Positions 22,718-45,002 of a stretch of 64,000 bases of DNA are shown in pieces. The notes beneath the pieces were generated by a model that saw only the letters and a program-made list of their open reading frames with translations, did no database searches and was not told where the DNA came from. The first letter of the stretch is position 1. Every line of letters begins with the position of its first letter. The translations under genes were made by a program, and so were the position numbers. The stretch covers positions 372,001 through 436,000 of the forward strand of contig CP071307.1 of assembly GCA_027563145.1 (NCBI GenBank), read 5' to 3'. Source of the DNA: Halocatena halophila. GTDB taxonomy: Archaea > Halobacteriota > Halobacteria > Halobacteriales > Haloarculaceae.

Positions 22718-23848
22718 TCAGTCCACCGTCGAAAATAATTCCAGCGCCGACTCGTCCACGTCGATCCCGAGTCCAGGGTCCTGGGGGACTGACAGCGTCC
22801 CGCCGGAAGGATCGAATGGGGTCGAAAGGATCTCCGAACGGAGCGGGTTCGGACTTCGGTCGAACTCGAACAGCGCGGGTTCTGGCTCGAACTGCGTGTG
22901 TGGATATGAAGGAACGGCTGTGGCAAACTGGATTGCGGCCGCCATGCCGACCCCGCTGTTCCAGACGTGTGGAGTCACACCGACGTTTTCGGTTGTCGCA
23001 AGCGTCGCGATCCGTCGTGCTTCCGTGAGTCCACCACACCGGGCGAGATTCGGTTGGACAATGTCCACGAGTCGATCATCAATGAGGCGCTTGAACGCGA
23101 ACCGACCGACAAGCGCTTCACCAGCGGCGATTGGCGTTGTCATCGACGCTCCCAGTTCTCGGTAGCCGCTGAGATTCTCCGGCGGAACGGGCTCTTCGAT
23201 CCACGCGAGATCGAACTCCTCCAGTCGGCGTGCGCTCGCAAGCGCCTGATCGGGACGGTAGTTCCCGTTCATGTCTGCCATGATGAGCGCATCATCACCC
23301 ATAATCTCTCGAGTGGTCCGGACCCGACGACGATCATCGTCCGGGCCAGCACCGATCTTGACCTTCACTGCCGTGAAGCCCTCCGCTCGGGCGGCTTCAA
23401 TCGGAGTTTCAATCGGACGGTCTGAATCAGCAAAATACATCGTTGAGGCGTACGGCGTCAGTGTCGTGCGCTCGCCACTCCCGAGGAGCCGATAGATTGG
23501 CGACCCGACCGTCTTCCCAATGATATCCCAGCAGGCCACGTCGATCGCAGAGCAGATCGCCTGCACGAAGACGCTCCGTCCGTAATGATACGGGTCCGTA
23601 AACCACCGCTCGGTTATTGACTCGACTGCGAACGGATCCATGCCGAGAATCCGGTCTTCGAACAGGGACTCAACGGTGGCCGAGGCAATGTTGCCCGGCA
23701 CGAACGCCTCACCCCAGCCAACCGTCCCGTCGTCAGTAACGAGCTTGAGAACCGCCGTCGATCGGGTCCGGCCTCCGCCGCGGGCGTCGCCAAGACGCTC
23801 CGAAACCGTCACTGAGAGGGGATACACCGTTACATTCGTTATCTGCAT
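22718..23848 (-). CDS. Enolase-superfamily enzyme, D-galactarolactone cycloisomerase-like
   Basis: A 376-residue mandelate-racemase/muconate-lactonising family member. The catalytic lysine pair is AVKVKIGAGPDDD near residue 160, metal ligands are in LIMADMNGNY, WIEEPVPP and IAAGEALVG, and a late histidine sits in TPHVWNSGVGMAAAIQF near 295, a motif I associate with Agrobacterium Gci. Gci opens galactaro-1,5-lactone, the product of uronate dehydrogenase, to 2-keto-3-deoxyhexarate. Galactarate or gluconate dehydratase activity is the main alternative. The ATG at 23848 begins the usual MQITNVTVYPLSV strand and has GGATTATCC (23873-23880) upstream; it is divergent from the KdgD-like gene. The pathway assignment rests on the cluster. 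Confidence 0.78.
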   Translation of the reverse strand: MQITNVTVYPLSVTVSERLGDARGGGRTRSTAVLKLVTDDGTVGWGEAFVPGNIASATVESLFEDRILGMDPFAVESITERWFTDPYHYGRSVFVQAICSAIDVACWDIIGKTVGSPIYRLLGSGERTTLTPYASTMYFADSDRPIETPIEAARAEGFTAVKVKIGAGPDDDRRRVRTTREIMGDDALIMADMNGNYRPDQALASARRLEEFDLAWIEEPVPPENLSGYRELGASMTTPIAAGEALVGRFAFKRLIDDRLVDIVQPNLARCGGLTEARRIATLATTENVGVTPHVWNSGVGMAAAIQFATAVPSYPHTQFEPEPALFEFDRSPNPLRSEILSTPFDPSGGTLSVPQDPGLGIDVDESALELFSTVD

Positions 23849-23945
23849 GACCGGAGGCTCGAACCGTGTCCGGATAATCCTTGCGCTGAGTCGATAGGTG
23901 TGAGTTGTCGATGGTTTTATCATTGGGTGCATGTATACTGAACGT

Positions 23946-24881
23946 ATGTCGTTGGTAGCTGAAACTGTCCAGGAGCGGCTCAGCGGCGTTGCAGTCGGTC
24001 TGTTGACGCCGTTCGACGATGCCCTCCAGGTTGAGCACGACAAACTCCGGGAAAATGCACAGACGCTGTATGGGGAGGGGATTCGAACGTTTCTCGCCAC
24101 CGCAAACATCAGCGAATATCATTCGCTGAGCCACGAAGAGCGAATTGCAGTGGTCAAAACCAGCGTTGATGAACTCCCGGGCGATGCGTGTGTGCTGGCC
24201 GGTGTTGGAGGGAGCGTCCGCGGCGCTCGGTCGTTGATCGAGGCGTACGACGGCGTCGGGGTCGATGCGATGATGATCATGCCGCCCGATCACACATATC
24301 TTCACGAGGAAGGACTGCTCGAATACTACCGAAAGCTCGACGATGTCACGGAGACGCCCCTGGTGCCGTACGTCCGCGGGATCGACCCATCAGTCGAATA
24401 TCTGGCTGCGCTGAGTCGAATCGACGGTGTGGTGGGAATCAAATACGCGATTCCCGATGCCGTCAAGCTGGGTGCTGCGATCGAGGCAGGAAGCGATGAA
24501 ATTGCGTGGGTCGACGGACTCGCCGAGCCATATGCCGTTTCGTTCTGGGCGGAGGGGATCGATGGCTTTTCCGCCGGTGTCAGCAACTTCAGACCCGAAG
24601 TGGGGCTTGCGCTGTACGACGCACTTGAGTCCGGCGAGTGGGCTAGAGCACGAGCACTGAAAAACGCCTGTCTGCCGTACCAGCAGTTTCGTGAACAGAC
24701 CGGCGAGGACAACACGATCAGCGGCGGCAGCAGCGTTGCTGCCGTGAAAGCAGCCCTCGAACTGCGGGGCCTGCATGGCGGTGCGGTCAGGGTGCCGTGT
24801 CAGCCACTGACACAGCCACAACAGCAACGGGCAAAAGAGCTCTACGACCGTCTCGACGAGGATATTGCGCGGCTCATCTGA
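23946..24881 (+). CDS. KdgD-like 5-dehydro-4-deoxyglucarate dehydratase (DHDPS family)
   Basis: A 311-residue class I aldolase-fold enzyme of the dihydrodipicolinate-synthase family. The Schiff-base lysine is in VVGIKYAIPD near residue 164, the tyrosine in PLVPYVRG, and the substrate loop in TFLATANISEYHSLS. The C-terminal GLHGGAVRVPCQPLTQPQ resembles the KDG-dehydratase subgroup, which dehydrates and decarboxylates 5-keto-4-deoxyglucarate to 2-oxoglutarate semialdehyde. A KDG aldolase of the same fold is the alternative. Two ATGs are in frame (23931 and 23946); GTTTTATC at 23914-23921 makes 23946 the better leaderless start. The divergent neighbour encodes the preceding step. Confidence 0.8.
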   Translation: MSLVAETVQERLSGVAVGLLTPFDDALQVEHDKLRENAQTLYGEGIRTFLATANISEYHSLSHEERIAVVKTSVDELPGDACVLAGVGGSVRGARSLIEAYDGVGVDAMMIMPPDHTYLHEEGLLEYYRKLDDVTETPLVPYVRGIDPSVEYLAALSRIDGVVGIKYAIPDAVKLGAAIEAGSDEIAWVDGLAEPYAVSFWAEGIDGFSAGVSNFRPEVGLALYDALESGEWARARALKNACLPYQQFREQTGEDNTISGGSSVAAVKAALELRGLHGGAVRVPCQPLTQPQQQRAKELYDRLDEDIARLI

Positions 24882-24956
24882 ACTGATCGATACGTGATGG
24901 ACAATGACGCGCAGGCGTCCCACAGGGTTAAGTTCGATCGGTGAGGTAAGCGGTGT

Positions 24957-25679
24957 ATGACGGTTCAGGTAACCGTGTGGAACGAGCATGTACACGAACG
25001 CGAAAACGAGTCGGTTCGAGAGCGCTATCCAGATGGCATCCACGGTGCGATCGCGGCGGGGCTTCGAACCGACGGCTACGCAGTCGAAACGCGAACGCTC
25101 GACGAACCCGACTGTGGACTGGATCCGACGACGATCGAAGAGACGGACGTTCTGGTGTGGTGGTCTCACTGTGCCAACGACGCCGTCGACGACGACGCGG
25201 CCGATCGCGTGGTCGAGACCGTCCACGACGGGATGGGATTTATCCCGCTTCACTCTGGAAAAAATTCCAAGCCGTTCGTTCGACTGATGGGAACGTCCTG
25301 TTCGATCAAGTATCGCCACGGTGGAGAGCGCGAACGAGTGTGGGTTGCCGATCCCGGCCATCCGATTGCCGACGGACTCGACGAACAGTTCGTCGTTCCT
25401 GCGACGGAAATGTACGGAGAACCGTACGACGTTCCCGAGCCGGATCGAACGGTGTTTATCTCCTGGTTCGAGGGCGGTGAAGTGTTTCGCTCCGGACTGT
25501 GTTACAGACGGGGGTCGGGGAGAATCTTCGCGTTTCGACCCGGACACGAAGCGTATCCAATCTACCACCAGCCCGAGATCAAGCGGGTACTCTCGAACGC
25601 GGTCGCGTGGGCAAAACCAACCTCGGGTGCCAGCATAACCACGGGCGAGGTTGCGGCGCTCGAATCTTCTGACTCCTGA
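24957..25679 (+). CDS. ThuA-family protein
   Basis: A 240-residue ThuA domain (class I glutamine-amidotransferase-like fold). The pattern VTVWNEHVHERENESVRERY, DVLVWWSHCANDAVDD, GMGFIPLHSGKNSKPFVRL and FAFRPGHEAYPIYH is characteristic. ThuA was named for trehalose utilisation in rhizobia, and such proteins often sit with Gfo/Idh/MocA oxidoreductases in sugar catabolic loci; their reaction remains unsettled. GGTTAAGTT at 24926-24934 fits a leaderless start at the ATG. It lies 75 bp after the KdgD-like gene in the same direction and belongs to the galacturonate island. Confidence 0.82.
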   Translation: MTVQVTVWNEHVHERENESVRERYPDGIHGAIAAGLRTDGYAVETRTLDEPDCGLDPTTIEETDVLVWWSHCANDAVDDDAADRVVETVHDGMGFIPLHSGKNSKPFVRLMGTSCSIKYRHGGERERVWVADPGHPIADGLDEQFVVPATEMYGEPYDVPEPDRTVFISWFEGGEVFRSGLCYRRGSGRIFAFRPGHEAYPIYHQPEIKRVLSNAVAWAKPTSGASITTGEVAALESSDS

Positions 25680-25844
25680 TTCAGCGCCGTTCTACCGCGC
25701 TGGTCGTTACCCAGCCGAACACAAGTCCCCTGTCGCGATGTTTCTATACAAATATTCTGGCCACACTATGTAAGAACACCAGAACCAGAATAGATCACAG
25801 CTTTCACCCGAACGTTCATTGTGACTGCGAGACAGAACTGGCGT

Positions 25845-27731
25845 ATGGTGGAATTCGAAGCGGTGACGGAGCTCTATGAGCCACCGGAATGGGTGTCACT
25901 CCAGCGGCAGCTGTTCGATCTGAGTACGACTGCTGTCGATCGATTCGTCGAGTTGTACGTGACCGACCATGGAGAGCCAGTCTGGCCACCGGCTGGCCAC
26001 GAAGGAATCGACGGATTCGATGATCTCATCGAAGGGGTCTACAACTGGCCGCTGCTCTACGCGATGGGGGGTGATCGACAGCTCGTCGAACACGCCCGCA
26101 CGGTCTATGAGGGTGCACTCGCCAGGGCATCGCGAACGCCGACCCCGTTCGGTCACGCCATGGTCGAAGACGAGTTCGAGGCCTGCCGTGACTGGTTCCA
26201 TCTCGGCGAGGGAAGCCTGTTCACCTACAACATGGGGCTGGCCATGCCAGATGACGAGGACGTTCGATCGCGGGCCACGCGGTTTGCCGATTTGTACCGT
26301 CAGGACCACCCGACTAACAATTACGACGGCGATCGACGACTGGTTCGTGGACCGATGAACGGCTCGATGGGGCCATCGTACGCGGACTTTTCGGCGTACG
26401 AACACCACCCGTACGGTGCAGACTACCGCTGGGCTCGTCACGGGCTACCGTGGCGCGACGGCCCGTTCGATTCCACCACAGAGCTGCTCGATCCGGCGAA
26501 CGAATCGGCACTGTTCGAGCTCATGGAAGAGCGGTGTTCCACCGGCGATATTCCATTGAATCTGAATATCACCTCATTGATGACGAACGCGTATCTCCAT
26601 ACGGGTGAGGCTGCCTACCGCGAGTGGGTGTTTGACTACCTTGAGGCCTGGCAAGAGCGAACGGCGGCGAACGACGGAATCATCCCGGACAACGTCGGTC
26701 GATCGGGAACGATCGGTGAAACGAACGGCGGTTCGTGGTATGGTGGCTACTACGGCTGGTCGTGGGGGGGATGGCACTACGTGGGGATCGGTCCGACAGT
26801 GGCCGCAGAAAACGCCGTGCTGCTCGGTGGCGAGACGGCTCCGCTCGACTTTCCACGAGAGCAACTGGATCGACTGATCGACAACGCCATCGCCGTGCCG
26901 GACGGTGCCGGAAACGAAACCCTCTATCTTCCCCACAAGTACGGCGATCCGGGTCCATATCGCTATGACGAAGGAGCTGTCCTCACCGATGACGACGGCT
27001 CAGTGCTGTATCGCGACGGCTTCTATGCGTTTCAACCCCACTCGGATCCGCCGTACGTCATCCATCTCTGGTATATGTCACTGGACGACGCTGACCGAGA
27101 TCGCGTTCGACGGCTTCGCAACCACGACACCAAGCCATGGAGAGGAGTTGACCCGACGCCAAGCACCAAACACGGCGCGGGAGAAGAATACGCCTGGCTT
27201 TCCTATCTTGACGGGGCATATCCTGACTACCCTGAGGAAGTCCTCCGGGCCGCTCGATCACGACTGTATCATCAGTGCCGTCGAATGGACGAAGAGGGAG
27301 AGCCACCAGCAAATCCGACTGAGGATTATCTCAGAGACCGCAACCCAGTGTTCCACCGCGCACTGTTACAGCTGACGATGGGGGCACCCCAGCCGATCTA
27401 CTACGGTGGACTGGTGATGGCACAGCTTCGCCATTTTGACCCGGAACGAGGGCGACCAGGACTGCCACCCGGCGTCGGAGCCCTGGTTTCGAGCGTGAAG
27501 GCCGACGGCGTCACCGTCCAGTTCGTCAACGCAGGAGTTGCCCCCAGAACGGTGTGCACGCAAGCGGGTGCGTACGGCGAACACCACATTACACACGTCG
27601 AACACGGGGGCGAATCGGTTGATCTCGATACGACGACACTCACGGTCAGACTGCCGAGCGCCTCGACGATCACGCTCGATCTCGATCTCGATCGGTTCGT
27701 CAACGATCCCAGCTACGATCAGCCACTGTGA
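25845..27731 (+). CDS. Unrecognised 628-residue protein in the pectin island
   Basis: No family can be named. The protein has no signal peptide and is acidic and rich in aromatic residues. Residues 1-500 look helical, with repeated Trp/Tyr-rich turns (PLLYAMGGDRQLVEHARTVY, DWFHLGEGSLFTYNMGLAMP, GSWYGGYYGWSWGGWHYVGI), resembling an alpha/alpha-toroid of glycoside hydrolases or polysaccharide lyases. The last 90 residues are beta-rich (GVTVQFVNAGVAPRTV and TTTLTVRLPSASTITLDLDL), like the C-terminal beta-sandwich of such enzymes. It ends 56 bp before the GH28 gene in the same direction, so a cytoplasmic enzyme for oligogalacturonide side chains or unsaturated ends is plausible. The start could be 25821 or the ATG at 25845. 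Confidence 0.8.
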   Translation: MVEFEAVTELYEPPEWVSLQRQLFDLSTTAVDRFVELYVTDHGEPVWPPAGHEGIDGFDDLIEGVYNWPLLYAMGGDRQLVEHARTVYEGALARASRTPTPFGHAMVEDEFEACRDWFHLGEGSLFTYNMGLAMPDDEDVRSRATRFADLYRQDHPTNNYDGDRRLVRGPMNGSMGPSYADFSAYEHHPYGADYRWARHGLPWRDGPFDSTTELLDPANESALFELMEERCSTGDIPLNLNITSLMTNAYLHTGEAAYREWVFDYLEAWQERTAANDGIIPDNVGRSGTIGETNGGSWYGGYYGWSWGGWHYVGIGPTVAAENAVLLGGETAPLDFPREQLDRLIDNAIAVPDGAGNETLYLPHKYGDPGPYRYDEGAVLTDDDGSVLYRDGFYAFQPHSDPPYVIHLWYMSLDDADRDRVRRLRNHDTKPWRGVDPTPSTKHGAGEEYAWLSYLDGAYPDYPEEVLRAARSRLYHQCRRMDEEGEPPANPTEDYLRDRNPVFHRALLQLTMGAPQPIYYGGLVMAQLRHFDPERGRPGLPPGVGALVSSVKADGVTVQFVNAGVAPRTVCTQAGAYGEHHITHVEHGGESVDLDTTTLTVRLPSASTITLDLDLDRFVNDPSYDQPL

Positions 27732-27758
27732 GACAGGCGGCTACCGACTGGACAATAT

Positions 27759-27768
27759 TTATTATTTA
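27759..27768 (+). promoter_or_regulatory. TATA-like box of the GH28 gene
   Basis: TTATTATTTA lies about 25 nt upstream of the ATG at 27788, supporting this start instead of the frame opening at 27728 and implying a leaderless transcript without a signal-peptide-coding extension. Confidence 0.55.
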
Positions 27769-27787
27769 TCCCGCCATGTTTCACACG

Positions 27788-29320
27788 ATGGAGTCAACCG
27801 CAGAGACAGCGCGTTCTATCGCGGCGTACGGTGTCAGTGGCGACGGGACGACAGTGGAAACAGACCGAATACAGTCAGCACTCATAGATTGTGCAGAATC
27901 CGGCGGAGTCCTCAGTTTTCCCCCTGGGGAGTATCTGACCGGACCGCTCACCGTTGGTAGCAATACGACCATCGAGATCCAGTCTGGTGCCACTCTCCGG
28001 TTCGTCCGGGATCTGACGGCGTTTCCGTCGGTCGAAAGCCGATGGGAGGGATGGGATCAGACCGGCTTTCACCCCTGCTTATGGATCGATACCGCCTCGA
28101 ACGTGACAATCCGTGGCGGTGGCGTGATCGATGGGCAGGGATCATACTGGTGGCAGTACACCGACATGGCACCCGGGGACCGCCCGGCCACCCTAACCGA
28201 TCGACTGGAGGAGTTCGAACAGGCAAACGATAAATCCGACACCGTGAGTTCGTTCACACTCAGACCGCCGCTCTGTCAAATTCATCGCTCTTCGGACGTG
28301 AGTATCTCCGGTGTTACACTCCGGAACTCGCCGTTCTGGAACACGCACGTGGTGTATTCCGACGACGTGGTGCTCACGGACCTCCGAATCGAAAATCCCG
28401 CGGATGCACCGAATGGCGATGGTATTGATATCGATTCGTCCACCCACGTCCACGTCAGCGACACGTTCATCGATGCCGGCGACGATGCAATCTGCATCAA
28501 ATCCGGAAAAGACGAGGAGGGTCGCCAGATCGGTCGTGCAGCCGAGAAGATCACCGTCACAAACTGTACCGTCGAAGCGGGTCACGGCGGTGTCGTGATT
28601 GGCTCCGAGATGTCCGGTGACGTGCGTGATGTCGTGGTCAGCAACTGTACGTTTACGGACACCGATCGCGGTATCCGCATCAAAACTCAGCGCGGCCGTG
28701 GCGGCGTTGTCGAGGATTGTCGCTTCTCGACGATCGTGATGCGACGTGTTGCCTGTCCGTTCGTGATCAACGGCTACTACTTTATGGATATCGACGCGGA
28801 CCCACAGCCGGTCGATGGGACCACGCCACTCGTCAGGCGAATCCATTTCACTGACATCACGGCCACGAACGTCGAATCGGCCGGCTTTCTGGCGGGGATT
28901 CCAGAGCAGCCGTTTGGCCCAATCACGCTCACCAACGTTGATATCAGCGCCACACGGTCGCTTGATGCAACCGGTCTCAGCCCGGCGATGACCGAGGGAT
29001 ACGAACAACAACACGGACTGTTCGCAAAATCGCTTTGCGAACTCGGAGTTCGTGACGTTCGGCTGCGTGTTGCCGATGGCCCACTGATGGCACTCCAGGC
29101 CGCCGAGACCGTCACGATCGATGGACTGGACGTTCCACGGGGATCGACCGATATCGATCTCGCGAATGTCGAACAGGCGACGCTCCGGAACGCACGACTG
29201 CCAGCGACGACCCGTATCAGCCAACGTGGCGAGTCGCCCGCGCTGTTGCGGATCGACGACGACATCGAAACAGCGATTGAGTCCGCCGACTCGACGGAAC
29301 TGACCGTCGAACGGACCTGA
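27788..29320 (+). CDS. GH28 polygalacturonase family enzyme, probably cytoplasmic
   Basis: A 510-residue right-handed beta-helix enzyme. The four GH28 motifs are present in order: NGDGIDIDS near residue 210, AGDDAICIKSG near 231, VEAGHGGVVIGSEMSGD near 265 and RGIRIKT near 296. The two aspartates of GDD and the aspartate of NGDG are the catalytic acids. No signal peptide precedes the first domain, unlike secreted polygalacturonases, so it probably trims galacturonate from imported oligomers, releasing the monomer used by uronate dehydrogenase. Rhamnogalacturonan or xylogalacturonan hydrolase activity is possible in the family. It follows the unrecognised 628-residue gene. Confidence 0.88.
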   Translation: MESTAETARSIAAYGVSGDGTTVETDRIQSALIDCAESGGVLSFPPGEYLTGPLTVGSNTTIEIQSGATLRFVRDLTAFPSVESRWEGWDQTGFHPCLWIDTASNVTIRGGGVIDGQGSYWWQYTDMAPGDRPATLTDRLEEFEQANDKSDTVSSFTLRPPLCQIHRSSDVSISGVTLRNSPFWNTHVVYSDDVVLTDLRIENPADAPNGDGIDIDSSTHVHVSDTFIDAGDDAICIKSGKDEEGRQIGRAAEKITVTNCTVEAGHGGVVIGSEMSGDVRDVVVSNCTFTDTDRGIRIKTQRGRGGVVEDCRFSTIVMRRVACPFVINGYYFMDIDADPQPVDGTTPLVRRIHFTDITATNVESAGFLAGIPEQPFGPITLTNVDISATRSLDATGLSPAMTEGYEQQHGLFAKSLCELGVRDVRLRVADGPLMALQAAETVTIDGLDVPRGSTDIDLANVEQATLRNARLPATTRISQRGESPALLRIDDDIETAIESADSTELTVERT

Positions 29321-29524: not shown

Positions 29525-30577
29525 ATGGACATGCAAACACAGGACAGATCCATTGCAGTTGGCGTTGTAGGGATCGGTAGTCTCGGACGCCGACTCGCAG
29601 AGCAGTTCTCTCGACTGGAAGACGCCAAATTATGTGCAATCGCGGAGGTCTCCGCAGAACGATTGGCGACGACCGGCGACCGACTTGGTGTGCCGGCCGG
29701 GTCCCGGTATGAAACGCTCGAGGGGATGTTATCTTCAGAAGCGCTCGACGCTGTTGGAATCGCGACGCCGAATGGACTGCACCACGAACAGGTCGTCACA
29801 GCACTCGAGGCGGACTGTCACGTCCTTTGTGAAAAGCCGCTCGCTACGACCGCCCGCGAAGCGTGCGATCTCGTCGATCTTGCGACCTCCTCGGACCGGA
29901 CGGTGATGGTTGGCTATCAGCGCCACCTGAATCCAGCGTTCGAACTCGCCCGTGAGCGCTGGGCAACCGGCGAACGGACACCCAGATTCATCACCGGAGA
30001 GATCACCCAGGACTGGCGCGAGCATTTCGAAACGATGGAGAACTGGCGGATGGATCCAACGCTCAGCGGCGGGGGCCACCTCCTTAACGTCGGGACCCAC
30101 GTGATCGACGCGATCCTCTGGACGACCGGACTCACGCCGACACACGTAACCGCACAAATGCAGTTCGCAGACGACGAGCAACGGTTCGATCAGCAATCAG
30201 CAATCATCCTGGAGTTCAAGGAGGGTGGATTTGGGACCATCCACGACACGGGGATGGTCGCTCGAACCCGCGAGCACATCCACATCTGGGACGGTGATGG
30301 TGCAGTGTATCTCGAGGGCGTCGAATGGGACGAACGAACCGGGTACCTGATCGACGAGGACGGCACCGAACACGAACCATATCAGTCATACACGCGTGAT
30401 CTTGCCAAAGGGCGCGCGTTTCTCAATGCCATCACCGACGGAACTGAACCGCCAGCGACCGTCGAAGACGGCTGTCTGGCAACGATCGTCACCATGGGGG
30501 CATACGAATCCGCACGGCGCGGCGAGCGAATCGAGCTCGCTCAGGAATTTCCGTTCGCCGAGTCTCTTCTCGACTGA
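29525..30577 (+). CDS. Gfo/Idh/MocA-family oxidoreductase
   Basis: A 350-residue NAD(P)-dependent sugar oxidoreductase. The dinucleotide motif is VGVVGIGSLGRRLA near the N-terminus; the family-defining lysine is in HVLCEKPLATTAREA, and the catalytic histidine region is LLNVGTHVIDAILWTTG. The C-terminal alpha/beta domain is complete. Substrates in this family include inositols, glucose, uronates and unsaturated sugars. It sits between GH28 and the transporter genes, so a galacturonate derivative is the likely substrate, but nothing in the sequence fixes it. An ATG at 29531 is an alternative start. Confidence 0.85.
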   Translation: MDMQTQDRSIAVGVVGIGSLGRRLAEQFSRLEDAKLCAIAEVSAERLATTGDRLGVPAGSRYETLEGMLSSEALDAVGIATPNGLHHEQVVTALEADCHVLCEKPLATTAREACDLVDLATSSDRTVMVGYQRHLNPAFELARERWATGERTPRFITGEITQDWREHFETMENWRMDPTLSGGGHLLNVGTHVIDAILWTTGLTPTHVTAQMQFADDEQRFDQQSAIILEFKEGGFGTIHDTGMVARTREHIHIWDGDGAVYLEGVEWDERTGYLIDEDGTEHEPYQSYTRDLAKGRAFLNAITDGTEPPATVEDGCLATIVTMGAYESARRGERIELAQEFPFAESLLD

Positions 30578-32542: not shown

Positions 32543-32587
32543 CTGCCCCGAACGTATTTGGTGAACGAGAACTCACGACACCACACA

Positions 32588-32782
32588 ATGGGAGTCGTAC
32601 AATCGATGGCGCGGTTGTGTATCGGTATCGACGTGTTGTTGCTGGTGTTGCTTGGCTACTCGTTTGCCTTTCTGGAGCCAGAGTCTGCGTCGTTCGTGAT
32701 CGCCACCATCACCCTCATCCCGATCGCCATCACCCTCGTCGGTGGCCTGACGGTGCTTCATTTCGACTGGGATCCGCTGTAG
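32588..32782 (+). CDS. Small two-helix membrane protein in the transporter operon
   Basis: A 64-residue protein with two hydrophobic helices (CIGIDVLLLVLLGYSFAFLE and VIATITLIPIAITLVGGLTV) joined by an acidic loop, ending in HFDWDPL. It lies between the binding protein and the first permease, in the same direction. GTATTTGG at 32552-32558 could be a separate promoter. I recognise no family; an accessory subunit is possible. Confidence 0.6.
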   Translation: MGVVQSMARLCIGIDVLLLVLLGYSFAFLEPESASFVIATITLIPIAITLVGGLTVLHFDWDPL

Positions 32783-32865
32783 CGGGCGGACTTATATCAT
32801 GGTCATTTCCTTATAGATAGGAACTTTGATTAGGGTACCAGAAATATGTAGCGTGTACTCATACC

Positions 32866-33870: not shown

Positions 33871-33924
33871 AGCACACACACTTCGATTTGTGCCACGAAC
33901 CCATCCACACTTCACAGCACGACG

Positions 33925-37121: not shown

Positions 37122-37188
37122 CGGTCGACGCTTGGCTGCACTGAGACGAACTGTTATGTGAACCCAGTTCGTGCCGTCAGATGGGTCA

Positions 37189-37623
37189 ATGGAGCACTTT
37201 TCAGCAGACGACGGGACGGTCGTCGTCAGACTCGACAGAGACGAACCGATTCTCGAATCCCTCCGGCGGGTGTGTTCTGCACACGGTATCGACACCGGTG
37301 TCGTACTCTCTGGCATCGCGACTGTCCAGTCGCTTCCGATACATTACGTCGATCGGACCACGATCACCGAAGACCGCGAGGACAGAAACACGATGGTCAC
37401 CTATGAGGGTGCCTGGGAGATCAACAGCATCGGTGGCGTAATTGCCGACGGGGAACCACATCTTCACATCACCGGGTTTGACGGAGAACGGACGGTGGCT
37501 GGTCACCTAGAAGAGGGGTGTTTGATCAACGTTCTTGGTGAGTTCACCCTCACAGGATTCGATGGGCTAGAACTCACGCGAACGCCGGACGAAAATGGCA
37601 TCTCGAAACTCACCGAACAGTAG
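37189..37623 (+). CDS. PPC-domain (DUF296) protein
   Basis: A 144-residue PPC domain, known from plant AT-hook proteins and present in many prokaryotes. The core GGVIADGEPHLHITGFDGER with a following AGHLEEGCLINVLGE carries the conserved histidines thought to bind metal. Prokaryotic members form trimers; their role is unknown, though DNA binding is often assumed. The frame opens at a GTG at 37171; GTTATGTG upstream favours the ATG at 37189. It follows the transporter operon by 67 bp in the same direction. Confidence 0.85.
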   Translation: MEHFSADDGTVVVRLDRDEPILESLRRVCSAHGIDTGVVLSGIATVQSLPIHYVDRTTITEDREDRNTMVTYEGAWEINSIGGVIADGEPHLHITGFDGERTVAGHLEEGCLINVLGEFTLTGFDGLELTRTPDENGISKLTEQ

Positions 37624-37931: not shown

Positions 37932-37950
37932 TTTTGGAAGACAACCAAAA
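37932..37950. promoter_or_regulatory. Inverted repeat upstream of the aldehyde dehydrogenase gene
   Basis: TTTTGG-AAGACAA-CCAAAA is a 6-bp inverted repeat with 7-bp spacing, 34 bp before the start codon and just upstream of the probable TATA region (about 37952-37961). It contains TGGAAGACA, close to the TGGAAATCA/TGGAAAACA elements at other promoters of the island. Confidence 0.45.
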
Positions 37951-37983: not shown

Positions 37984-39432
37984 ATGACGCCAGTGACTGA
38001 CAACTACGTCGATGGAGAGTGGTGCAGCGCCGAGCACAGTGAGACGTTCTCGGTCACCAATCCCGCAACGGGAGCGGTGGTCGGTGAGTACCAATCATCA
38101 ACCGAGAATGACGTTGAACGGGCGATAGAAGCGGCAGTGAGCGCACAGGACACATGGGCAATGACGCCGGGGCCACAGCGTGGAGAAATTCTCCGACGTA
38201 CTGCGGGTAAGCTTGACGCGCGCGCAGAGGAGCTTACCGAACTACTGGTGACAGAAGAGGGAAAGACGTGGTCTGAGGCTGCCGGTGAAGTTGGCCGGGC
38301 GGTGGACATCTTTTATTACTACGCCGAGAAGGCACGCGATCTGGGTGGCCAGGTGAAAAGTTCCTCGGCCGAAGAGACGCAGCTGTACACCGTCTCGGAG
38401 CCACTCGGCGTGGCGGCAATTATCACGCCATGGAATTATCCGATCGCCATTCCGGCCTGGAAACTCGCGCCGGCGCTCGCGAGTGGCAACACCGTCGTGT
38501 TCAAACCGGCATCCGGGGCTCCCGGCGTCGGAACGGCCATCGTGGAGTGTCTCGAGGCGGCTGGACTCCCCGAGGGCGTCTGTAACTGCACCACCGGGTC
38601 GGGAAGCGTGGTGGTTTCGCCGTTGCTCGACCACGAAGATGTGGACAGCGTCTCCTTTACCGGTTCGACGAGCGTTGGGACGCACGTTGCCCAGACGGCC
38701 GCCGATGATCTAAAGCGAGTACAGTGTGAGATGGGGGGGAAGAATCCGACGGTCGTCATGCCCAGTGCGGACCTCACAATGGCTGCCGAAATCGTGGCAA
38801 GTGGTGGCTTTGGAACGACCGGCCAGTCGTGTACCGCCACCTCGCGGGCGATCGTCCACACCGACGTTGTCGATGCGTTCACCGACGAACTCGTCGAACA
38901 GGCAACATCGTACGCGGTTGGCCCGGGCATCGACGATCCGGATATGGGACCACAGGTCTCAAAAGAAGAACTCGACTCGACGCTTTCGGCGATTGCGGAC
39001 GGAACGAGCGAGGGCGCAACGCTCGAAACGGGCGGGAAACAACTCGAAGGCGATCAGTACGACGACGGCCACTTCGTCGCGCCGACGGTGTTCTCCGGGG
39101 TGGAACCGTCAATGTCGATCGCCCGCGATGAGATCTTCGGCCCAGTGGTCAGCGTCATCGAAACAGCGTCGTTCGATGCAGCCATCGAGCTAGCAAACGA
39201 CTCCCGGTATGGCCTCGCTGCAAGCATCGTCACCGACGACCACACCGAAGCGACCCGATTTATCAACGAGGTCGAAGCCGGTGTCGTGAAGGTCAACGAG
39301 AAAACAACCGGCCTGGAGCTGCACGTTCCGTTCGGTGGAATGAAAGATTCCTCTACGAACACGTATCGCGAACAGGGTGACGCTGGCCTCGAATTCTTCA
39401 CGACGACGAAAACAGTGTACGACGCGTACTAA
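37984..39432 (+). CDS. 2-oxoglutarate semialdehyde dehydrogenase-like aldehyde dehydrogenase
   Basis: A 482-residue NAD(P)-dependent aldehyde dehydrogenase. Motifs: ITPWNYPIAIPAWKLAPALA, the catalytic glutamate region in CEMGGKNPTVV near residue 249, and the nucleophile cysteine in GQSCTATSRA near 282. In the galacturonate route the substrate would be 2,5-dioxopentanoate made by the KdgD-like enzyme, giving 2-oxoglutarate for the citrate cycle. A succinate-semialdehyde or other aldehyde specificity cannot be excluded from sequence alone. The stop codon overlaps that of the convergent uronate dehydrogenase gene. Confidence 0.83.
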   Translation: MTPVTDNYVDGEWCSAEHSETFSVTNPATGAVVGEYQSSTENDVERAIEAAVSAQDTWAMTPGPQRGEILRRTAGKLDARAEELTELLVTEEGKTWSEAAGEVGRAVDIFYYYAEKARDLGGQVKSSSAEETQLYTVSEPLGVAAIITPWNYPIAIPAWKLAPALASGNTVVFKPASGAPGVGTAIVECLEAAGLPEGVCNCTTGSGSVVVSPLLDHEDVDSVSFTGSTSVGTHVAQTAADDLKRVQCEMGGKNPTVVMPSADLTMAAEIVASGGFGTTGQSCTATSRAIVHTDVVDAFTDELVEQATSYAVGPGIDDPDMGPQVSKEELDSTLSAIADGTSEGATLETGGKQLEGDQYDDGHFVAPTVFSGVEPSMSIARDEIFGPVVSVIETASFDAAIELANDSRYGLAASIVTDDHTEATRFINEVEAGVVKVNEKTTGLELHVPFGGMKDSSTNTYREQGDAGLEFFTTTKTVYDAY

Positions 39433-40268
39433 CCATCTGTGGGCGGCCCATCCCATCGGTGACCACCGTCCTGGGGGTCGTAGCCGATGACCTCGCGGGC
39501 ATGGTCAATATCTAACCAGCGCCCGGCGTTGTCGCTCACGCCGTAGAACACGTCGAACGAGACGGTCTCATCACGCAAACAGCAATCCACCTGGTGGGCA
39601 AAGTCACGACGGGACTGCCACAGCGCCTTCATTCTGGCCACTGCACGCTGATACTGGTCCGAATCCCGGTCGAATTCACCGCTGTCGACACCGTGTTCTG
39701 CGTCACCGTACGGATGGTCGTACTGCGTACCGTTGACTGTCCCAACCCGGAGCGAGTAGAACCGCCGGGGATACTCGTGACACTCGGTGTAGTAGCGCCC
39801 GAGAGCCTCACCGAAGCATTTTGTCGCTCCATAGAACGAATCCGGGCGGACTGGATCGGTGTGATCGACGGTGAGATCGTGACTCGGAGCATACACGGCT
39901 GGTGCGTGCTCTAGTTCGTACATTCCCACGGCATGGTTCGAGGAGATAAACACGAATCGTTCGTGTTCACCACGACGAGCCGCCTCAAGCGCATTGTACA
40001 TGCCGATGATGTTGGGTTCGAGGACGGTTTCAAAGTCACCATCGGTGTATGGGTACGCTGCCATATGCACCATCGCGTCGTGGCCGCTGGCGGCCCCAAT
40101 CAGCGTGTCCCTGTCGGCCACGTCGGCCACGATCGTGTCGTAGCCACCGTACGGATGGTCTGTCGGCCGATCGGACCGATTGAGATACGTCCAGTCGTAG
40201 GCATCCTCAAGATGGTCGATCAGGGCTGTACCACACCGACCGTACGCACCAGTCAGTAACACGTCCAT
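39429..40268 (-). CDS. udh: NAD-dependent uronate dehydrogenase
   Basis: A 279-residue extended short-chain dehydrogenase. The nucleotide motif is TGAYGRCGTALIDHL, the catalytic serine sits in VFISSNHAVGMYE and the Tyr-Lys pair in RPDSFYGATKCFGEALGRYY. Together with LRVGTVNG and the C-terminal VFYGVSDNAGRWLDIDHA these match bacterial uronate dehydrogenase, which oxidises galacturonate and glucuronate to the aldaro-1,5-lactone. It is the first step of the oxidative route and the enzyme that best identifies the pathway. The minus-strand TATA-like element at 40291-40300 places a leaderless start at 40268. Confidence 0.88.
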   Translation of the reverse strand: MDVLLTGAYGRCGTALIDHLEDAYDWTYLNRSDRPTDHPYGGYDTIVADVADRDTLIGAASGHDAMVHMAAYPYTDGDFETVLEPNIIGMYNALEAARRGEHERFVFISSNHAVGMYELEHAPAVYAPSHDLTVDHTDPVRPDSFYGATKCFGEALGRYYTECHEYPRRFYSLRVGTVNGTQYDHPYGDAEHGVDSGEFDRDSDQYQRAVARMKALWQSRRDFAHQVDCCLRDETVSFDVFYGVSDNAGRWLDIDHAREVIGYDPQDGGHRWDGPPTDG

Positions 40269-40324: not shown

Positions 40325-41122
40325 TCAGTCGAACTCGCTGACCCCCGTGGACGAGAATTTGGTGTTGAGTTCGATGACGTTCGCCGCCCGCTGGACGTGG
40401 TCGGCAAACTCTCCGTGAATCCGGTCGTCGGTGAACCGACTCGATGGCCCGGTGATCGAGATCGCACCGAGAACGGTCTCCTCGTGTCGGACGGGTGCCG
40501 AGACACAACGCAACCCCTGAATGTTTTCCTCGTCGTCGACGCCGTACCCCTGCGATTCGATCCGGTCGAGTTCGGAGTGGAGTTCCGCAGGCTCAGTAAT
40601 CGTGTTCGGCGTGTTGGCTTCGTAGTCGGCGTTCGAGACGATCGACGCCGTTCGGTCTGTGGGCATGAACGCGAGAATCGTTTTCCCGAGCGACGTGGAG
40701 TACATGGGTTGTTGGATGCCCACACGAGAGCGGGTTTCCACCGCCTGATCGCCCGCTGCCTTGTAGAGATAGCTCACCATGCCGTGCTCTTCGATTCCGA
40801 ACTGAACGATTTCGCCCGTGGTCTCGGCCAGCTCGTCAACCTCCTTTGTGATTACGTCATAGTTTCCCACCTGCTCTCTGACACGGTTGGCAATATCGAG
40901 CACGCGGAGGCTCAACCGGTAGCCCTCTGGCTCTTGCACCAGATAGTTGCGCTCAGTCAGCGTCTGTAAATGGCTGTAGATCGTGCTCTTTGAGTGTCCA
41001 AGTTCGTTTGCAAGCTCCGTTACCCCAACGTGTTTTCGCTCCTGCAACACCTCGATGATGTTGAACGCGATCGTTACCGAACGAATCGTCCGTCCGGAAT
41101 ATCCATCTTCGGACACCGTCAT
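40325..41122 (-). CDS. IclR-family transcriptional regulator
   Basis: A 265-residue regulator. The N-terminal winged helix is RTIRSVTIAFNIIEVLQERK, then VTELANELGHSKSTIYSHLQ and TLTERNYLVQEPEGYRL. The C-terminal effector domain follows (GEIVQFGIEEHGMVSYLYKA, SLGKTILAFMP, and GLRCVSAPVRHEETVLGAIS). IclR proteins often sense aromatic or sugar acids, so galacturonate or a later intermediate is the likely ligand. The frame opens at a GTG at 41143, with ATGs at 41134 and 41122; the TATA-like box at 41144-41153 fits the ATG at 41122. It is the only obvious regulator of the pectin island. Confidence 0.87.
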   Translation of the reverse strand: MTVSEDGYSGRTIRSVTIAFNIIEVLQERKHVGVTELANELGHSKSTIYSHLQTLTERNYLVQEPEGYRLSLRVLDIANRVREQVGNYDVITKEVDELAETTGEIVQFGIEEHGMVSYLYKAAGDQAVETRSRVGIQQPMYSTSLGKTILAFMPTDRTASIVSNADYEANTPNTITEPAELHSELDRIESQGYGVDDEENIQGLRCVSAPVRHEETVLGAISITGPSSRFTDDRIHGEFADHVQRAANVIELNTKFSSTGVSEFD

Positions 41123-41143
41123 TGTTTTCCACATGTTTTCCAC
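41123..41143. promoter_or_regulatory. Direct repeat overlapping the iclR promoter
   Basis: Two exact copies of the 10-mer TGTTTTCCAC (41123-41132 and 41134-41143; GTGGAAAACA on the other strand), spaced 11 bp apart or one helical turn. They fill the space between the TATA-like box (41144-41153) and the start codon. This is a likely autoregulatory site of the IclR protein. Confidence 0.5.
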
Positions 41144-41540: not shown

Positions 41541-43667
41541 ATGACACAAAATAGGCGCACATTTCTTCGTGCGTTAACAGCGGGGAGTATCGCGACGGGA
41601 CTGTTCAGTGGAATCAGTGCGGGGGCGACACCCATATCCGTTTCGGGCGGGGGCACCGATATCTGGAACCAGGCCGACGCATTTCATTACTACTACACGG
41701 AGCTCACCGGTGATTTCGACGTGAGCGTACACACGGACACCGTCCCGGATACTGATAGCTGGGCAAAGGCCGGGCTGATGGTTCGCCAGACGTTGAACGC
41801 AGACGCTGAAAACGCCATGGTCCGTCGGCGACCGAACGGAGAAGTGTCCTTCCAGTGGCGGGGAGACGACGGTAACGACACGGTGAGTACCACCTCGGAT
41901 GGCGGGAGCGATGAATCTGACGTTCCCAACGGATACATCAGCGCCGACTGGCTACGGTTGACCCGGAGCGGTGATACGATCACGGCGTACGGATCGACCG
42001 ACGGAAACGGCTGGACACGGATCAGTTCGATCGAACCGAGCACGATCGACTTCGCCGAGGACGCCTACGTCGGACTTGCGGTGACGAGTCACAACGAGGG
42101 GACGCTCTGTTCGGTTCCGTTCGACAGTCTTTCCGGGGTGACGCCGACGGCGAATCGTGACATCGGCGACGTTTCGATTGCGGGAAGTGTCTCTGGTGGT
42201 GGCGGAACCGACCGAGATCCAATCGTTTCGACGGGTGCAGTCACCGACGTGGGGAGCAGTTCGTTGCACGTTACGGGGAGTCTCGACGATCTCGGCGATG
42301 CAGCCTCGGCGACAGTGGGCTTTGAGTATCGATCACCGGGCAACAACTGGTCGCAGACCACAACCGAGACACTGGGATCAACCGGATCGTTTTCTCGATC
42401 GATCGACGGGCTCGCTTCATCAACCACCTATGAGATTCGGGCAATTGCATCGGCAAGCGACGGCGACATCGCAACCGGGACCACAGTGACCACGGAGACA
42501 ACCGACGGCGGTGGGGGCTCCCAGCCCGGCGGTGCCATGTTCGATCCCGAGGATGGATTCGCCACGACCGACTGGTTCGACGACTCGGTAACCGTCCACC
42601 GAGTAACCGAAGCGACGGTGAGCGCGGTCCGATCAGCGTTCGAGGCGAGTGGCCCACGGCTGGTCGTCTTCGAAACCAGCGGCGTGATCGATCTCGAGAC
42701 GAATGATCTCGAGATCACGAATCCGTACTGTTGGGTCGCCGGACAGACTGCGCCGTCACCCGGAATCACGTTCATCAACGGAATGATCCAGGTCGCGGCC
42801 GACAACTGCGTCGTCCAGCATCTCCGCATTTTCCGGGGTGAAGACGGGGGCGCTGCCGAGGGAGCCGATCCGATGAACAACGCCGACGAAACGTCGAACG
42901 TGATCTTCGATCACTGTACGGCGTTCTGGGGGCGCGACGAAAATCTCTCGGTTGGCTACGACAGCACGAATACGACGATCACCAACTCGTTGATCGCTGA
43001 AGGGCTGGACGAACCCGAAGAGAATTCGAACGGCTCGCTCGTTGGCAATGGTGCCTCAAACGTCGCAATTCTCGGATCGGTGTATGCGGCCAACAACGAC
43101 CGGAATCCGCGACTGAAAGACAATACCCAGAGCGTGATCGCCAACTCGCTGGTGTATTACTTCGATAAGGCAATCATGATCTCTGATGGTGCCCAGGCGT
43201 CAGTGGTCAACAACCAGTATCTGGGCCGATTCGACTGGTCCGACGCTGTCATCAAGGGAGATGGAAGCGTCTACATCGAGAACAACGACGTTGCCGACCC
43301 ACCACAGAACGGTCGGACGTTCTGCAGCACCAGCCAGCTTAACAGTGTGCCGCTCTGGCCATCGGGGCTCTCGGTGATGAACACAAACGAGGTCGAGAAT
43401 CACAATCTGGCCTACGCTGGCGCACGACCCGCGGATCGTATCAGTCACGAACAACGCGTAATCGACGATATCGCCGCGCGCGCACACGAAACGAACGTTT
43501 CCGACCCGGACAATGCACCAGGAATTCCAGGTACCGAAGACGAGGTCGGCGGCTATCCCGATCACAGCAGCTCGACGCATTCGTTGTTTGTTCCGGAGAG
43601 TGATCTGCGCGGCTGGATCGACGCGTGGGCGCTTGCTGTCGAAGAGCCCAACACGAATCCGCCGTGA
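41541..43667 (+). CDS. Exported PL1 pectate lyase with N-terminal beta-sandwich module
   Basis: A 708-residue secreted enzyme. The N-terminus is a twin-arginine signal (NRRTFLRALTAGSIATGLFS). Residues about 30-200 form a concanavalin-like beta-sandwich of the DUF1349 kind (ELTGDFDVSVHTDTVPDTDS, AGLMVRQTLNADAENAMVRR). Residues about 230-325 look like a fibronectin-III-type module, and a Gly-rich linker leads to the catalytic beta-helix (about 335-690) with VIFDHCTAFWGRDENLSVG, QVAADNCVVQHLRIFRGEDG and NPRLKDNTQSVIANSLVYYF. PL1 enzymes cleave polygalacturonate by beta-elimination and need calcium. It supplies the outside step of the island and lies next to iclR. Confidence 0.85.
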   Translation: MTQNRRTFLRALTAGSIATGLFSGISAGATPISVSGGGTDIWNQADAFHYYYTELTGDFDVSVHTDTVPDTDSWAKAGLMVRQTLNADAENAMVRRRPNGEVSFQWRGDDGNDTVSTTSDGGSDESDVPNGYISADWLRLTRSGDTITAYGSTDGNGWTRISSIEPSTIDFAEDAYVGLAVTSHNEGTLCSVPFDSLSGVTPTANRDIGDVSIAGSVSGGGGTDRDPIVSTGAVTDVGSSSLHVTGSLDDLGDAASATVGFEYRSPGNNWSQTTTETLGSTGSFSRSIDGLASSTTYEIRAIASASDGDIATGTTVTTETTDGGGGSQPGGAMFDPEDGFATTDWFDDSVTVHRVTEATVSAVRSAFEASGPRLVVFETSGVIDLETNDLEITNPYCWVAGQTAPSPGITFINGMIQVAADNCVVQHLRIFRGEDGGAAEGADPMNNADETSNVIFDHCTAFWGRDENLSVGYDSTNTTITNSLIAEGLDEPEENSNGSLVGNGASNVAILGSVYAANNDRNPRLKDNTQSVIANSLVYYFDKAIMISDGAQASVVNNQYLGRFDWSDAVIKGDGSVYIENNDVADPPQNGRTFCSTSQLNSVPLWPSGLSVMNTNEVENHNLAYAGARPADRISHEQRVIDDIAARAHETNVSDPDNAPGIPGTEDEVGGYPDHSSSTHSLFVPESDLRGWIDAWALAVEEPNTNPP

Positions 43668-43670
43668 GGC

Positions 43671-45002
43671 TCACTCCCGATCCGATGGCTCCTCTATGAC
43701 GACAACCCGGAGATCGTTCACGTTGGTGTTCGTCTGCCCGGTGTAGATGCGAGCATCCGCCTGATCGAGAAACGTGCCGGCGTCGTTCGCATCAAGAGCG
43801 GACTGCGCTGCGTTCTGTGGCATGGCCGTTTCTGTCGTCGTGATTGCACCGGCCGCCTCGACACCATCGATTCCGTCGGTGTCGACGCTGGCAACGGTTA
43901 TTTCGGGGGCGTCAGTTTCTATGGCCGCGCTGAGAGCGAACTCCTGGTTCGGACCGCCTTCGCCGTTGCCCGTGACGGTGACCGTCGTCTCACCCCCGGA
44001 AAGCAAGATGGCCGGCGGTTCGACCGGCTGTCCTGTGTACAGACACTGTTTGGCTATTGCCACGATCGTTTTGGCCGCTTCGCGAGCCTCACCGCGAACG
44101 TGACCACTCAACACCAGTGGCGTGTACCCGGCCTCGCGTGCGGTTGTTGTGGCTGCCTCGAGTGCCGTCGTGCTGTCCGCTACGACGTGCTGTGTGACCT
44201 GCTCGAAGGCCGGATCGTCGCTAGCAGGCGTTTCGGGGAGCGCCCCGTCGACACCGGATTCGAGATGGACGATGACAGAGGAAGGGACGGAAACGTCGAA
44301 TCGGTCTAGTACTTCCAGGGCGTCGGAGTACGTCGATTCGTCAGGGGTGCACACACCGCTTGCGATCACGTCTAGCCGATCGTCGACCACATCGCTGAAC
44401 ACCAGTCCGACGGTCGTGGCTGGCGTACAGGCCCTGGCGAGCTGGCCGCCTTTGATCGCAGAGCAATGCTTTCGAACCGCGTTGATCGCCTCGATCGGCG
44501 CACCGCTTTCGAGCAGTGCACTCGTCGTCGATTGTAGCGCATCCAACGTGATCTCTCCTGCCGGTGCCCCTAGCAATGCACTCCCGCCACCGGTGACGAT
44601 CGCTACCACGAGATCCGACGCCGTGGCCTCCTCGGCAAGACGCAGTACAGACCGCGTGTTCTCGACTCCTCGCTCGGATGGAATGGGATGATCGCCAGCC
44701 TTCACCCTGATTTGATCACACGCCACTGCTTTATCCGTTACCACGACGCCGTCGTCGATTCGATTGCCAAGCAGCGACTCGAGCGCGCTGGCCGCGATGC
44801 CAGCCGCGTTGCCACCGCCAACAACGAGTAGTCGTTCGTACGCGTCGAGATCGTACCGGTCCGCGCCGATCGTGAGCGTCGTGCCCTCAAGCGCAAGTTT
44901 CGAATCGATCACCGCTGTGGGGTCCGCTGCGTTGATTCCCGCCTCGATGCAGTCGAGAGCGACTTCGTGTCTGGGGGCGAGCGCCGTGCGATTGTTGATC
45001 AT
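43671..45002 (-). CDS. Glycerate 2-kinase, MOFRL/TtuD family
   Basis: A 443-residue kinase of the DUF4147/MOFRL type. It has LLVVGGGNAAGIAASALE, VTDKAVACDQIRVKAGDHPI, the glycine-rich AIVTGGGSALLGAPAGEI, and the C-terminal MOFRL block AILLSGGETTVTVTGNGEGG plus NQEFALSAAI. The family phosphorylates glycerate at C2, giving 2-phosphoglycerate. The open frame reaches 45140, but the ATG at 45002 starts the family's usual helix. The main oxidative route of the island makes no glycerate, so it may serve KDG-derived glyceraldehyde or an unrelated path. Its stop lies four bases from that of the convergent pectate lyase gene. Confidence 0.85.
   Translation of the reverse strand: MINNRTALAPRHEVALDCIEAGINAADPTAVIDSKLALEGTTLTIGADRYDLDAYERLLVVGGGNAAGIAASALESLLGNRIDDGVVVTDKAVACDQIRVKAGDHPIPSERGVENTRSVLRLAEEATASDLVVAIVTGGGSALLGAPAGEITLDALQSTTSALLESGAPIEAINAVRKHCSAIKGGQLARACTPATTVGLVFSDVVDDRLDVIASGVCTPDESTYSDALEVLDRFDVSVPSSVIVHLESGVDGALPETPASDDPAFEQVTQHVVADSTTALEAATTTAREAGYTPLVLSGHVRGEAREAAKTIVAIAKQCLYTGQPVEPPAILLSGGETTVTVTGNGEGGPNQEFALSAAIETDAPEITVASVDTDGIDGVEAAGAITTTETAMPQNAAQSALDANDAGTFLDQADARIYTGQTNTNVNDLRVVVIEEPSDRE

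Follow-up and report, generated by a model that had tools for sequence, protein, structure and literature searches.

We examined a gene cluster at positions 22718-44996 of a 64,000-base stretch of Halocatena halophila DNA, hereafter the window, which covers positions 372001-436000 of the 844,905-base contig C2 (CP071307.1) in a 3.75-Mb assembly (GCA_027563145.1). An earlier note had described the locus as a complete haloarchaeal route from pectin to 2-oxoglutarate. Gene products were assigned by Pfam, NCBIfam, and PDB sequence scans, and every element that the note had named at the locus was present. In window coordinates, the cluster contains:

22718..23848, minus strand: MR-subgroup enolase, likely similar to galactarolactone cycloisomerase (Gci) (Pfam MR_MLE_C/N; best PDB matches 5OLC, 251.6 bits, and 4GGB, 239.3)
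23931..24881, plus strand: DHDPS-family protein, likely KdgD-like (Pfam DHDPS; PRK03620 148 bits, KdgD 121 bits)
24957..25679, plus strand: ThuA-family protein (Pfam ThuA)
25821..27731, plus strand: cytoplasmic-looking protein of 636 amino acids (no Pfam, NCBIfam, or PDB sequence match)
27728..29320, plus strand: GH28 protein of the polygalacturonase/galacturonidase type (Pfam GH28 155 bits; PDB 3JUR)
29525..30577, plus strand: Gfo/Idh/MocA oxidoreductase (Pfam)
30677..32542, plus strand: family-5 solute-binding lipoprotein (Pfam SBP_bac_5; twin-arginine (Tat) motif and lipobox read from the sequence)
32866..33870, plus strand: ABC importer permease 1 (Pfam BPD_transp_1; NCBIfam Opp/Nik B-type, below cut-offs)
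33925..34968, plus strand: ABC importer permease 2 (Pfam BPD_transp_1; NCBIfam Opp C-type, below cut-offs)
34968..37121, plus strand: ABC importer fused twin ATPase (Pfam ABC_tran twice and oligo_HPY)
37171..37623, plus strand: PCC (DUF296) domain protein (Pfam PCC)
37984..39432, plus strand: 2,5-dioxovalerate (alpha-ketoglutarate semialdehyde) dehydrogenase, KGSADH (NCBIfam DioxValDhHalo 786 bits)
39429..40268, minus strand: short-chain dehydrogenase/reductase (SDR) resembling uronate dehydrogenase (Udh) (best PDB match 3RFT; Azf model 189 bits)
40325..41143, minus strand: IclR-family regulator, nearest to KdgR (Pfam IclR_C/HTH_IclR; NCBIfam KdgR 157 bits)
41541..43667, plus strand: pectate-lyase-like protein with a Tat motif and an N-terminal DUF1349-like domain (NCBIfam PelZ 177 bits; PDB 9buj)
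43671..44996, minus strand: glycerate 2-kinase, MOFRL type (Pfam; NCBIfam glycerate 2-kinase 205 bits)

The Udh-like SDR, the Gci-like enolase, the KdgD-like protein, and the KGSADH would form an oxidative core. Of these four, judged by sequence, only the KGSADH passes a curated equivalog cut-off (750 bits for DioxValDhHalo), in agreement with the semialdehyde dehydrogenase of the earlier note; the other three are assigned by nearest match, motifs, and linkage. The SDR gene is convergent with the KGSADH gene and overlaps its 3' end.

The listed open reading frame of the enolase begins too far upstream, running into the divergent KdgD-like gene. Homology places the start near 23848, and searches were run with 22718-23842. 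Two structures, 5OLC and 4GGB/4HPN, lead its PDB matches (252 and 239 bits), with the third at only 165. We take 5OLC, deposited as "Galactonate dehydratase," to be a 3,6-anhydrogalactonate cycloisomerase, and 4GGB/4HPN, labeled "Putative uncharacterized protein" in the PDB, to be the Agrobacterium Gci. The motifs KxKIG, D-E-E, and PHxWNS are kept in all 19 aligned sequences, the window's included (relatives in the enolase, DHDPS, and GH28 motif alignments have at least 45% identity, those of the lyase at least 40%). When aligned with 4GGB, the enolase retains the MR-subgroup residues (KxK, D-E-E, His) that we presume to be catalytic. The earlier comparison with Gci is backed in that this structure is among the two best and the presumed catalytic residues are conserved, but 5OLC ranks first.

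The DHDPS-family protein scores best against the two NCBIfam models for 5-dehydro-4-deoxyglucarate dehydratase, PRK03620 (cut-off 278 bits) and KdgD TIGR03249 (cut-off 374), ahead of DapA (77 bits), although it fails both cut-offs. Its best PDB matches are labeled dihydrodipicolinate synthase, with KdgD 4UR7 ninth. The GxKYA lysine is kept in 19 of 19 aligned sequences. A KdgD-like dehydratase, as proposed earlier, is favored by the order of the NCBIfam models but not by these cut-offs or by the PDB ranking.

Uronate dehydrogenases are the nearest PDB structures to the SDR, which carries the SSNHxxGxY and YGxxK motifs and the RMxxxW arginine of 3RFT/3AY3. This arginine does not discriminate Udh from Azf, because by eye it aligns in Azf too. 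Azf, the glucose-6-phosphate dehydrogenase of Haloferax, belongs to the same SDR group (PMC8506132; here and below, papers given by PMC number are cited from excerpts). Five Azf proteins are 34-38% identical to the window SDR and possess an NLTxxH loop (motif from PMC8506132) that the SDR lacks. Conversely, a DHPYGDAE-type insertion is common to the haloarchaeal Udh-like clade and absent from Azf; it is also absent from 3AY3 as printed, where seven residues lie between the two printed pieces. The SDR falls short of the Azf NF041293 cut-off (189 vs. 400 bits), and Azf proteins form their own clade in the tree (100/98). We rejected the possibility that the SDR is this genome's own Azf, as a separate Azf on contig C1 scores 452 bits against 181 for the SDR.

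These same families could serve a neutral sugar, pentose or galactose, in a Weimberg-like scheme. The SDR would then be an L-arabinose- or glucose-type dehydrogenase, the enolase an aldonate dehydratase, and the DHDPS protein a 2-keto-3-deoxy-pentonate dehydratase, with the KGSADH shared, and this last family presumably serves pentose pathways as well. Azf is indeed the best NCBIfam match of the SDR, and models for galactonate, gluconate/galactonate, and arabinonate dehydratases match the enolase at 195, 185, and 170 bits. However, all of these scores are far below the cut-offs, the PDB leaders are 5OLC and Gci for the enolase and uronate dehydrogenase for the SDR, and the DHDPS protein scores highest with KdgD-type models in NCBIfam. 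Linkage to GH28 and pectate lyase homologues, and elsewhere to GH105, also points to uronates. We consider a neutral-sugar core very improbable.

Genes for depolymerization and import surround this core. The GH28 protein, intracellular-looking as the earlier note had it, far exceeds the Pfam cut-off (22.9 bits) and has no evident signal peptide. Its NCBIfam match to PglA reaches 252 bits, below the cut-off of 600, and the nearest PDB structure, 3JUR, is an exo-poly-alpha-D-galacturonosidase. The motifs NGDGID, AGDDAI, GHGG, and RIK, which we take to be GH28 signatures, are kept in 12 of 12 aligned sequences. The supposed PepT-type transporter turned out to be an oligopeptide (Opp)-type ABC importer (30677-37121). 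Tat-type motifs, read from the sequence, open both the solute-binding protein and the lyase. The earlier assignment of the latter as an exported PL1 pectate lyase is upheld in the Tat motif and the pectate-lyase-like character, given by PelZ (cut-off 840 bits) and the pectate lyase structure 9buj (E 1.2e-13), but not in the family, as there is no match to Pfam PF00544 (pectate lyase) at E 0.001. Its N-terminal DUF1349 match (32.3 bits) is just under the cut-off of 32.4. In three Halosimplex loci (L070, L074, and L080), several tandem lyase matches (49-72% identical to stretches of the window's enzyme) occur near the gene for the 636-residue protein.

We then used this last gene to follow the cluster across the class. 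It occurs in 31 of 391 sampled Halobacteria genomes (14 of 86 genera, three families) and is intact in 28, including the window genome. Stretches of up to 20 kb were taken around the other 30 copies, 27 of them intact, and searched for ten partners: enolase, KdgD-like protein, ThuA, GH28, Gfo/Idh, PCC, aldehyde dehydrogenase (ALDH), Udh, IclR, and lyase. A partner was counted if at least 30% of the protein was covered, at set identity levels. All 27 intact loci have at least one partner, and 17 have at least four. In an overlapping set of 24 named loci, 22 have at least one; the exceptions come from a Salinarchaeum and a Chloroflexi metagenome-assembled genome (MAG). This recurrence rules out the cluster as a one-off of a single genome. 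Nor is the clustering due to chance, because other genera have these genes clustered too, in different arrangements, and the shuffled gene order also means that linkage is not merely the unbroken descent of one block.

The core enzymes are linked in the same way. The enolase is found in 48 of the 391 genomes (E 1e-90) and in 29 of the 31 that have the 636-residue protein gene. All 48 carry a Udh relative of at least 57% identity, compared to at least 70 of the 391 overall, and udh and the enolase gene lie within 8 kb of each other in 31 of the 48, among the matches listed. For the KGSADH, 44 genomes were scanned: all 31 that have the 636-residue protein gene, plus 13 of the other 19 with the enolase. 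In 43 of them it exceeds the cut-off, and in 24 of these 43 its gene and udh are no more than 8 kb apart, a count that omits two partial ALDH rows, one of them near udh. Fisher p values for linkage are tiny but ignore phylogeny and shared ancestry. The segment from the enolase gene to the PCC gene is collinear in YIM A00013, a haloarchaeon from salt-lake soil that undergoes morphological differentiation (PMC10067837), where 11 genes encode proteins of 86-97% identity. At least three families of Halobacteria thus share a conserved uronate-oxidation module, and not stray lyases alone.

Strengthened by this genome-wide linkage, the Udh-Gci-KdgD-KGSADH logic is the best fit to the sequences, and we conclude that the cluster is probably a gene set for the use of pectate and oligogalacturonides. 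The Tat-exported lyase-like enzyme would cut polygalacturonate outside the cell, and the Opp-type importer would take up the resulting oligogalacturonides, from which the cytoplasmic GH28 enzyme, aided by the 636-residue protein, may free galacturonate. Judging from family, motifs, and linkage, the Udh-like SDR would oxidize galacturonate to galactarolactone, the Gci-like enolase would convert the lactone by ring opening and dehydration into 5-keto-4-deoxy-hexarate, and dehydration and decarboxylation of this compound by the KdgD-like enzyme would give alpha-ketoglutarate semialdehyde. The KGSADH, a family member by curated cut-off, is predicted to complete the route to 2-oxoglutarate. Glucuronate may also be used, because bacterial Udh and Gci accept both sugars (review PMC6353982).

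Several observations weigh against this interpretation. The Udh-like, Gci-like, and KdgD-like proteins and the lyase are without support from a curated cut-off. No Udh model appeared for the SDR in the NCBIfam scan. The haloarchaeal Udh clade joins 3RFT/3AY3 at 66/26, with long branches and partial PDB rows, and a further support value for its placement is 92/79, again with long branches; the uronate dehydrogenase of the earlier note therefore keeps its nearest structures and its separation from Azf, but its joining to the bacterial enzymes is not firm. In the window genome, udh and the enolase gene are 15.6 kb apart, and no operator common to the cluster promoters was found among 12 intergenic stretches, only short palindromes. 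Neither a lactone isomerase nor a pectin esterase was detected among the island proteins scanned, and with KduI found in none of 28 genomes (see below), "complete" was too strong a word for this pathway. One genome of the window's genus (G276) has neither the 636-residue protein gene nor the enolase. In three of the 31 genomes (G144, L056; G164, L057; G270, L055) only fragments of the former gene are left, and the enolase match of G144 is in pieces too; hence, some lineages appear to be losing the module.

Growth data also count against it. Natronoglomus mannanivorans AArc-m2/3/4 (G344) carries udh, the enolase, KdgD-like, KGSADH, GH28, importer, ThuA, PCC, and IclR genes, lyase homologues, and the gene for the 636-residue protein (no close Gfo/Idh was found on the stretches read). 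Yet pectin, polygalacturonate, and rhamnogalacturonan supported no growth of a set of strains that includes these and encodes GH28, PL1, and PL22 enzymes, pectin enrichments failed, and the report cautions against deducing function from genomes alone (PMC9726719). Strain A-rgal3, which may or may not carry the module, grew marginally or not at all in liquid culture with galacturonate polymers and the monomer, and is credited with some growth on rhamnogalacturonan (PMC12343721). A carrier that does not grow might be held back by expression, by transport, or at some other step, or its true substrate could be a different one; pectate may also be poorly accessible in brine. Haloarchaeal genomes have pectin-lyase genes, yet the isolates of the first study do not grow on pectin and growth in the second is marginal or nil. 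It is in the carriers among several Haloferax species and in Halocatena pleomorpha (G337), from the window's own genus, that the question of pectin use can be settled.

The failure of a carrier on pectin (PMC9726719) is also what would be expected if the same oxidative core served another uronic acid polymer or oligosaccharide, such as a glucuronate-containing one or rhamnogalacturonan side chains, with pectin not the main substrate. The missing PF00544 match of the lyase would be compatible with this, as would the breadth of GH28, which includes rhamnogalacturonidases whose NCBIfam models match the window protein at 151 and 122 bits, the acceptance of both uronates by the bacterial enzymes (PMC6353982), and a PL22 gene near an alpha-rhamnosidase gene, about 123 kb from the cluster on the same contig. 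However, PglA polygalacturonase and exo-poly-alpha-D-galacturonosidase are the best matches of the GH28 protein, those of the lyase are pectate lyases, and rhamnogalacturonan, too, failed to support growth of AArc-m2/3/4 (PMC9726719). We regard a different main polymer as unlikely and retain pectate and oligogalacturonides as the probable substrates. The PL22 gene belongs to a stretch (L169, C2 positions 262001-280000) that also encodes an alpha-L-rhamnosidase, an abhydrolase, and a relative (21% identity) of the window's solute-binding protein, possibly a second pectin locus on the same contig.

The proposed pathway closely parallels the oxidative galacturonate pathway of Agrobacterium, which comprises Udh, Gli, Gci, KdgD, and KGSADH (review PMC6353982). 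Four enzyme types are shared and encoded in one cluster, with 2-oxoglutarate as the common end product, and in the PDB scans of the window proteins Udh 3RFT ranks first, Gci 4GGB second, and KdgD 4UR7 ninth. The window differs in being archaeal, in an SDR with a DHPYGDAE-containing insertion, and in having no Gli among the proteins scanned; it adds ThuA, PCC, and Gfo/Idh proteins, the 636-residue protein, Opp-type import, and a GH28 protein without signal peptide. Among haloarchaea, the pectin clusters of Haloterrigena turkmenica likewise combine PL1 and GH28-type genes; in contrast, neither a uronate dehydrogenase nor Gci or KdgD is mentioned in the excerpts of that report, in which glucuronate takes an isomerase route (PMC3102087). 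Glycosaminoglycan loci with GH88 and GH154 are also plasmid-borne uronate-polymer loci with ABC import, but they target hyaluronate and chondroitin, and an isomerase, reductase, kinase, and aldolase were inferred for the uronate (PMC13260240). Some Halomicroarcula encode galacturonate and glucuronate degradation, according to one sentence in PMC8600319. Among the open-access matches listed, which leave most subscription papers uncovered, no earlier paper on a uronate dehydrogenase pathway in archaea was found. We regard the cluster as real and conserved, a new archaeal version of a pathway known from bacteria that encloses an undescribed protein family. The earlier reading as a strong candidate for a new archaeal pectin-use system is only partly supported: several families carry the module, and a carrier did not grow on pectin (PMC9726719).

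The undescribed family is that of the 636-residue protein, whose start is probably near 25854 by homology. Its product has no match in Pfam, NCBIfam (E 0.001), or PDB sequences (CAZy was outside the search), and 18 relatives gave only two stray Pfam matches (E 0.068). We accordingly rejected its placement, by sequence, in any existing family of Pfam, NCBIfam, or the PDB, as profile and member scans gave weak stray matches only. Relatives were aligned in two sets, the window sequence with 17 of the 27 intact relatives and with 18 of the 24 named loci. An AlphaFold2 model built from 19 sequences (mean pLDDT 71.5, pTM 0.80) has long low-confidence stretches; it consists mostly of helices, which we read as an alpha/alpha toroid, followed by beta-sandwich-like strands. 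We assign this toroid plus beta-sandwich architecture with moderate confidence. The best Foldseek matches in the PDB are AGE/cellobiose epimerases (E 4e-4), GH127 (1e-3), and GH76 (5e-3), but TM-scores are low and these are hints at the level of the fold only. Imported uronides are its most likely substrates, on which it would act as a glycosidase, lyase, or epimerase. In Chloroflexota, the phylum of a Chloroflexi MAG, 29 of 301 genomes have relatives (e.g., L146, L150, and L155) that are about 29-40% identical. Their neighbors include sugar-type ABC transporters, oxidoreductases, and unrelated genes, with no single clear theme, and the sole Chloroflexota member scanned (L081) had no Pfam match.

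Cleavage by a pectate lyase creates 4,5-unsaturated ends. Their handling would need enzymes encoded outside the cluster. We surveyed KduI, GH105, and PL22 in the 28 genomes with an intact gene for the 636-residue protein, leaving out the three that have only fragments. The KduI family was found in none of the 28 (the control was detected in six of 14 known genomes), whereas 18 of the 28 gave strong GH105 matches and 13 have PL22. Across 41 genomes with GH105, 30 have Udh; the two genes lie within 10 kb of each other in 12, eight of which belong to one genus, and do not in 29. Trios of udh, GH105, and KdgD-like genes occur in L166-L168, and two Haloferax loci (L165 and L179) show the order GH105-KGSADH-KdgD-like-udh. 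No close Gci-like enolase was found on the fetched stretch in L165, L167, L168, and L179, whereas L166 has one nearby. In the tree, the Udh proteins of L166-L168 and L212 group in a clade of their own.

These clusters hint at a KduI-free route, which would be an addition to the galacturonate pathway proposed above. The 4-deoxy-5-keto-uronate released by GH105 or PL22 would be oxidized at C1 by a Udh-like or Gfo/Idh enzyme, and Gci would be needed for saturated galacturonate only. This is a reasonable hypothesis, because such an oxidation would give the KdgD substrate directly, and the stereochemistry, worked out from the structures, fits. The failure to find KduI alongside GH105 and PL22, the 12 genomes with GH105 near udh, and the four clusters without a close enolase on the fetched stretch are in its favor. 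On the other hand, in most GH105 genomes the two genes are not neighbors, and one genus dominates those in which they are; the genomes of these loci carry a close enolase elsewhere, L167 and L168 have a distant one (30%) nearby, and in the window genome the sole GH105-like gene, next to one for an aldo/keto reductase, scores low (40 bits). The main alternative is that non-homologous isomerases take the place of KduI, as we presume other isomerase families could. An isomerase-reductase-kinase-aldolase route has been inferred from genomes for unsaturated glucuronate in other haloarchaea (PMC13260240). Overall, we see the KduI-free route as possible but tentative. It is more speculative still that the 636-residue protein founds a new family of cytoplasmic alpha/alpha-toroid enzymes cleaving imported, probably unsaturated, oligogalacturonides and, at the same time, that haloarchaeal pectin use is all-oxidative and KduI-free, with saturated galacturonate (via Udh and Gci) and unsaturated uronate (via direct C1 oxidation by a Udh-like enzyme) meeting at KdgD and ending in 2-oxoglutarate.

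The remaining genes recur to different degrees. ThuA lies on the same fetched stretch as the 636-residue protein gene in 13 of 27 loci and Gfo/Idh in 14 of 27, while in L172, L174, L175, L177, and L178 the PCC gene has udh within about 6 kb. A link of the glycerate kinase to the pathway is doubtful: its NCBIfam match is below the cut-off of 550 bits, and a glycerate/tartronate-semialdehyde branch was set aside, as the kinase recurs near the 636-residue protein gene in only one of the 27 loci. The IclR-family regulator anticipated by the earlier note probably senses a keto-deoxy intermediate, given its KdgR-like match (below the cut-off of 275 bits). Shared control would fit the divergent arrangement of the enolase and KdgD-like genes (82-base gap) and of the iclR and lyase genes (397-base gap). 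The inverted repeat TTTTGGAAGACAACCAAAA at 37932-37950, directly upstream of the KGSADH gene, is a possible operator.

Two further genes of the window have Tat-like starts. One, at 18658-19977 on the minus strand, gives an almost full-length DUF7405 match. The other, at 49823-51118 and outside the cluster, encodes a beta-helix protein that may be a further polysaccharide enzyme.

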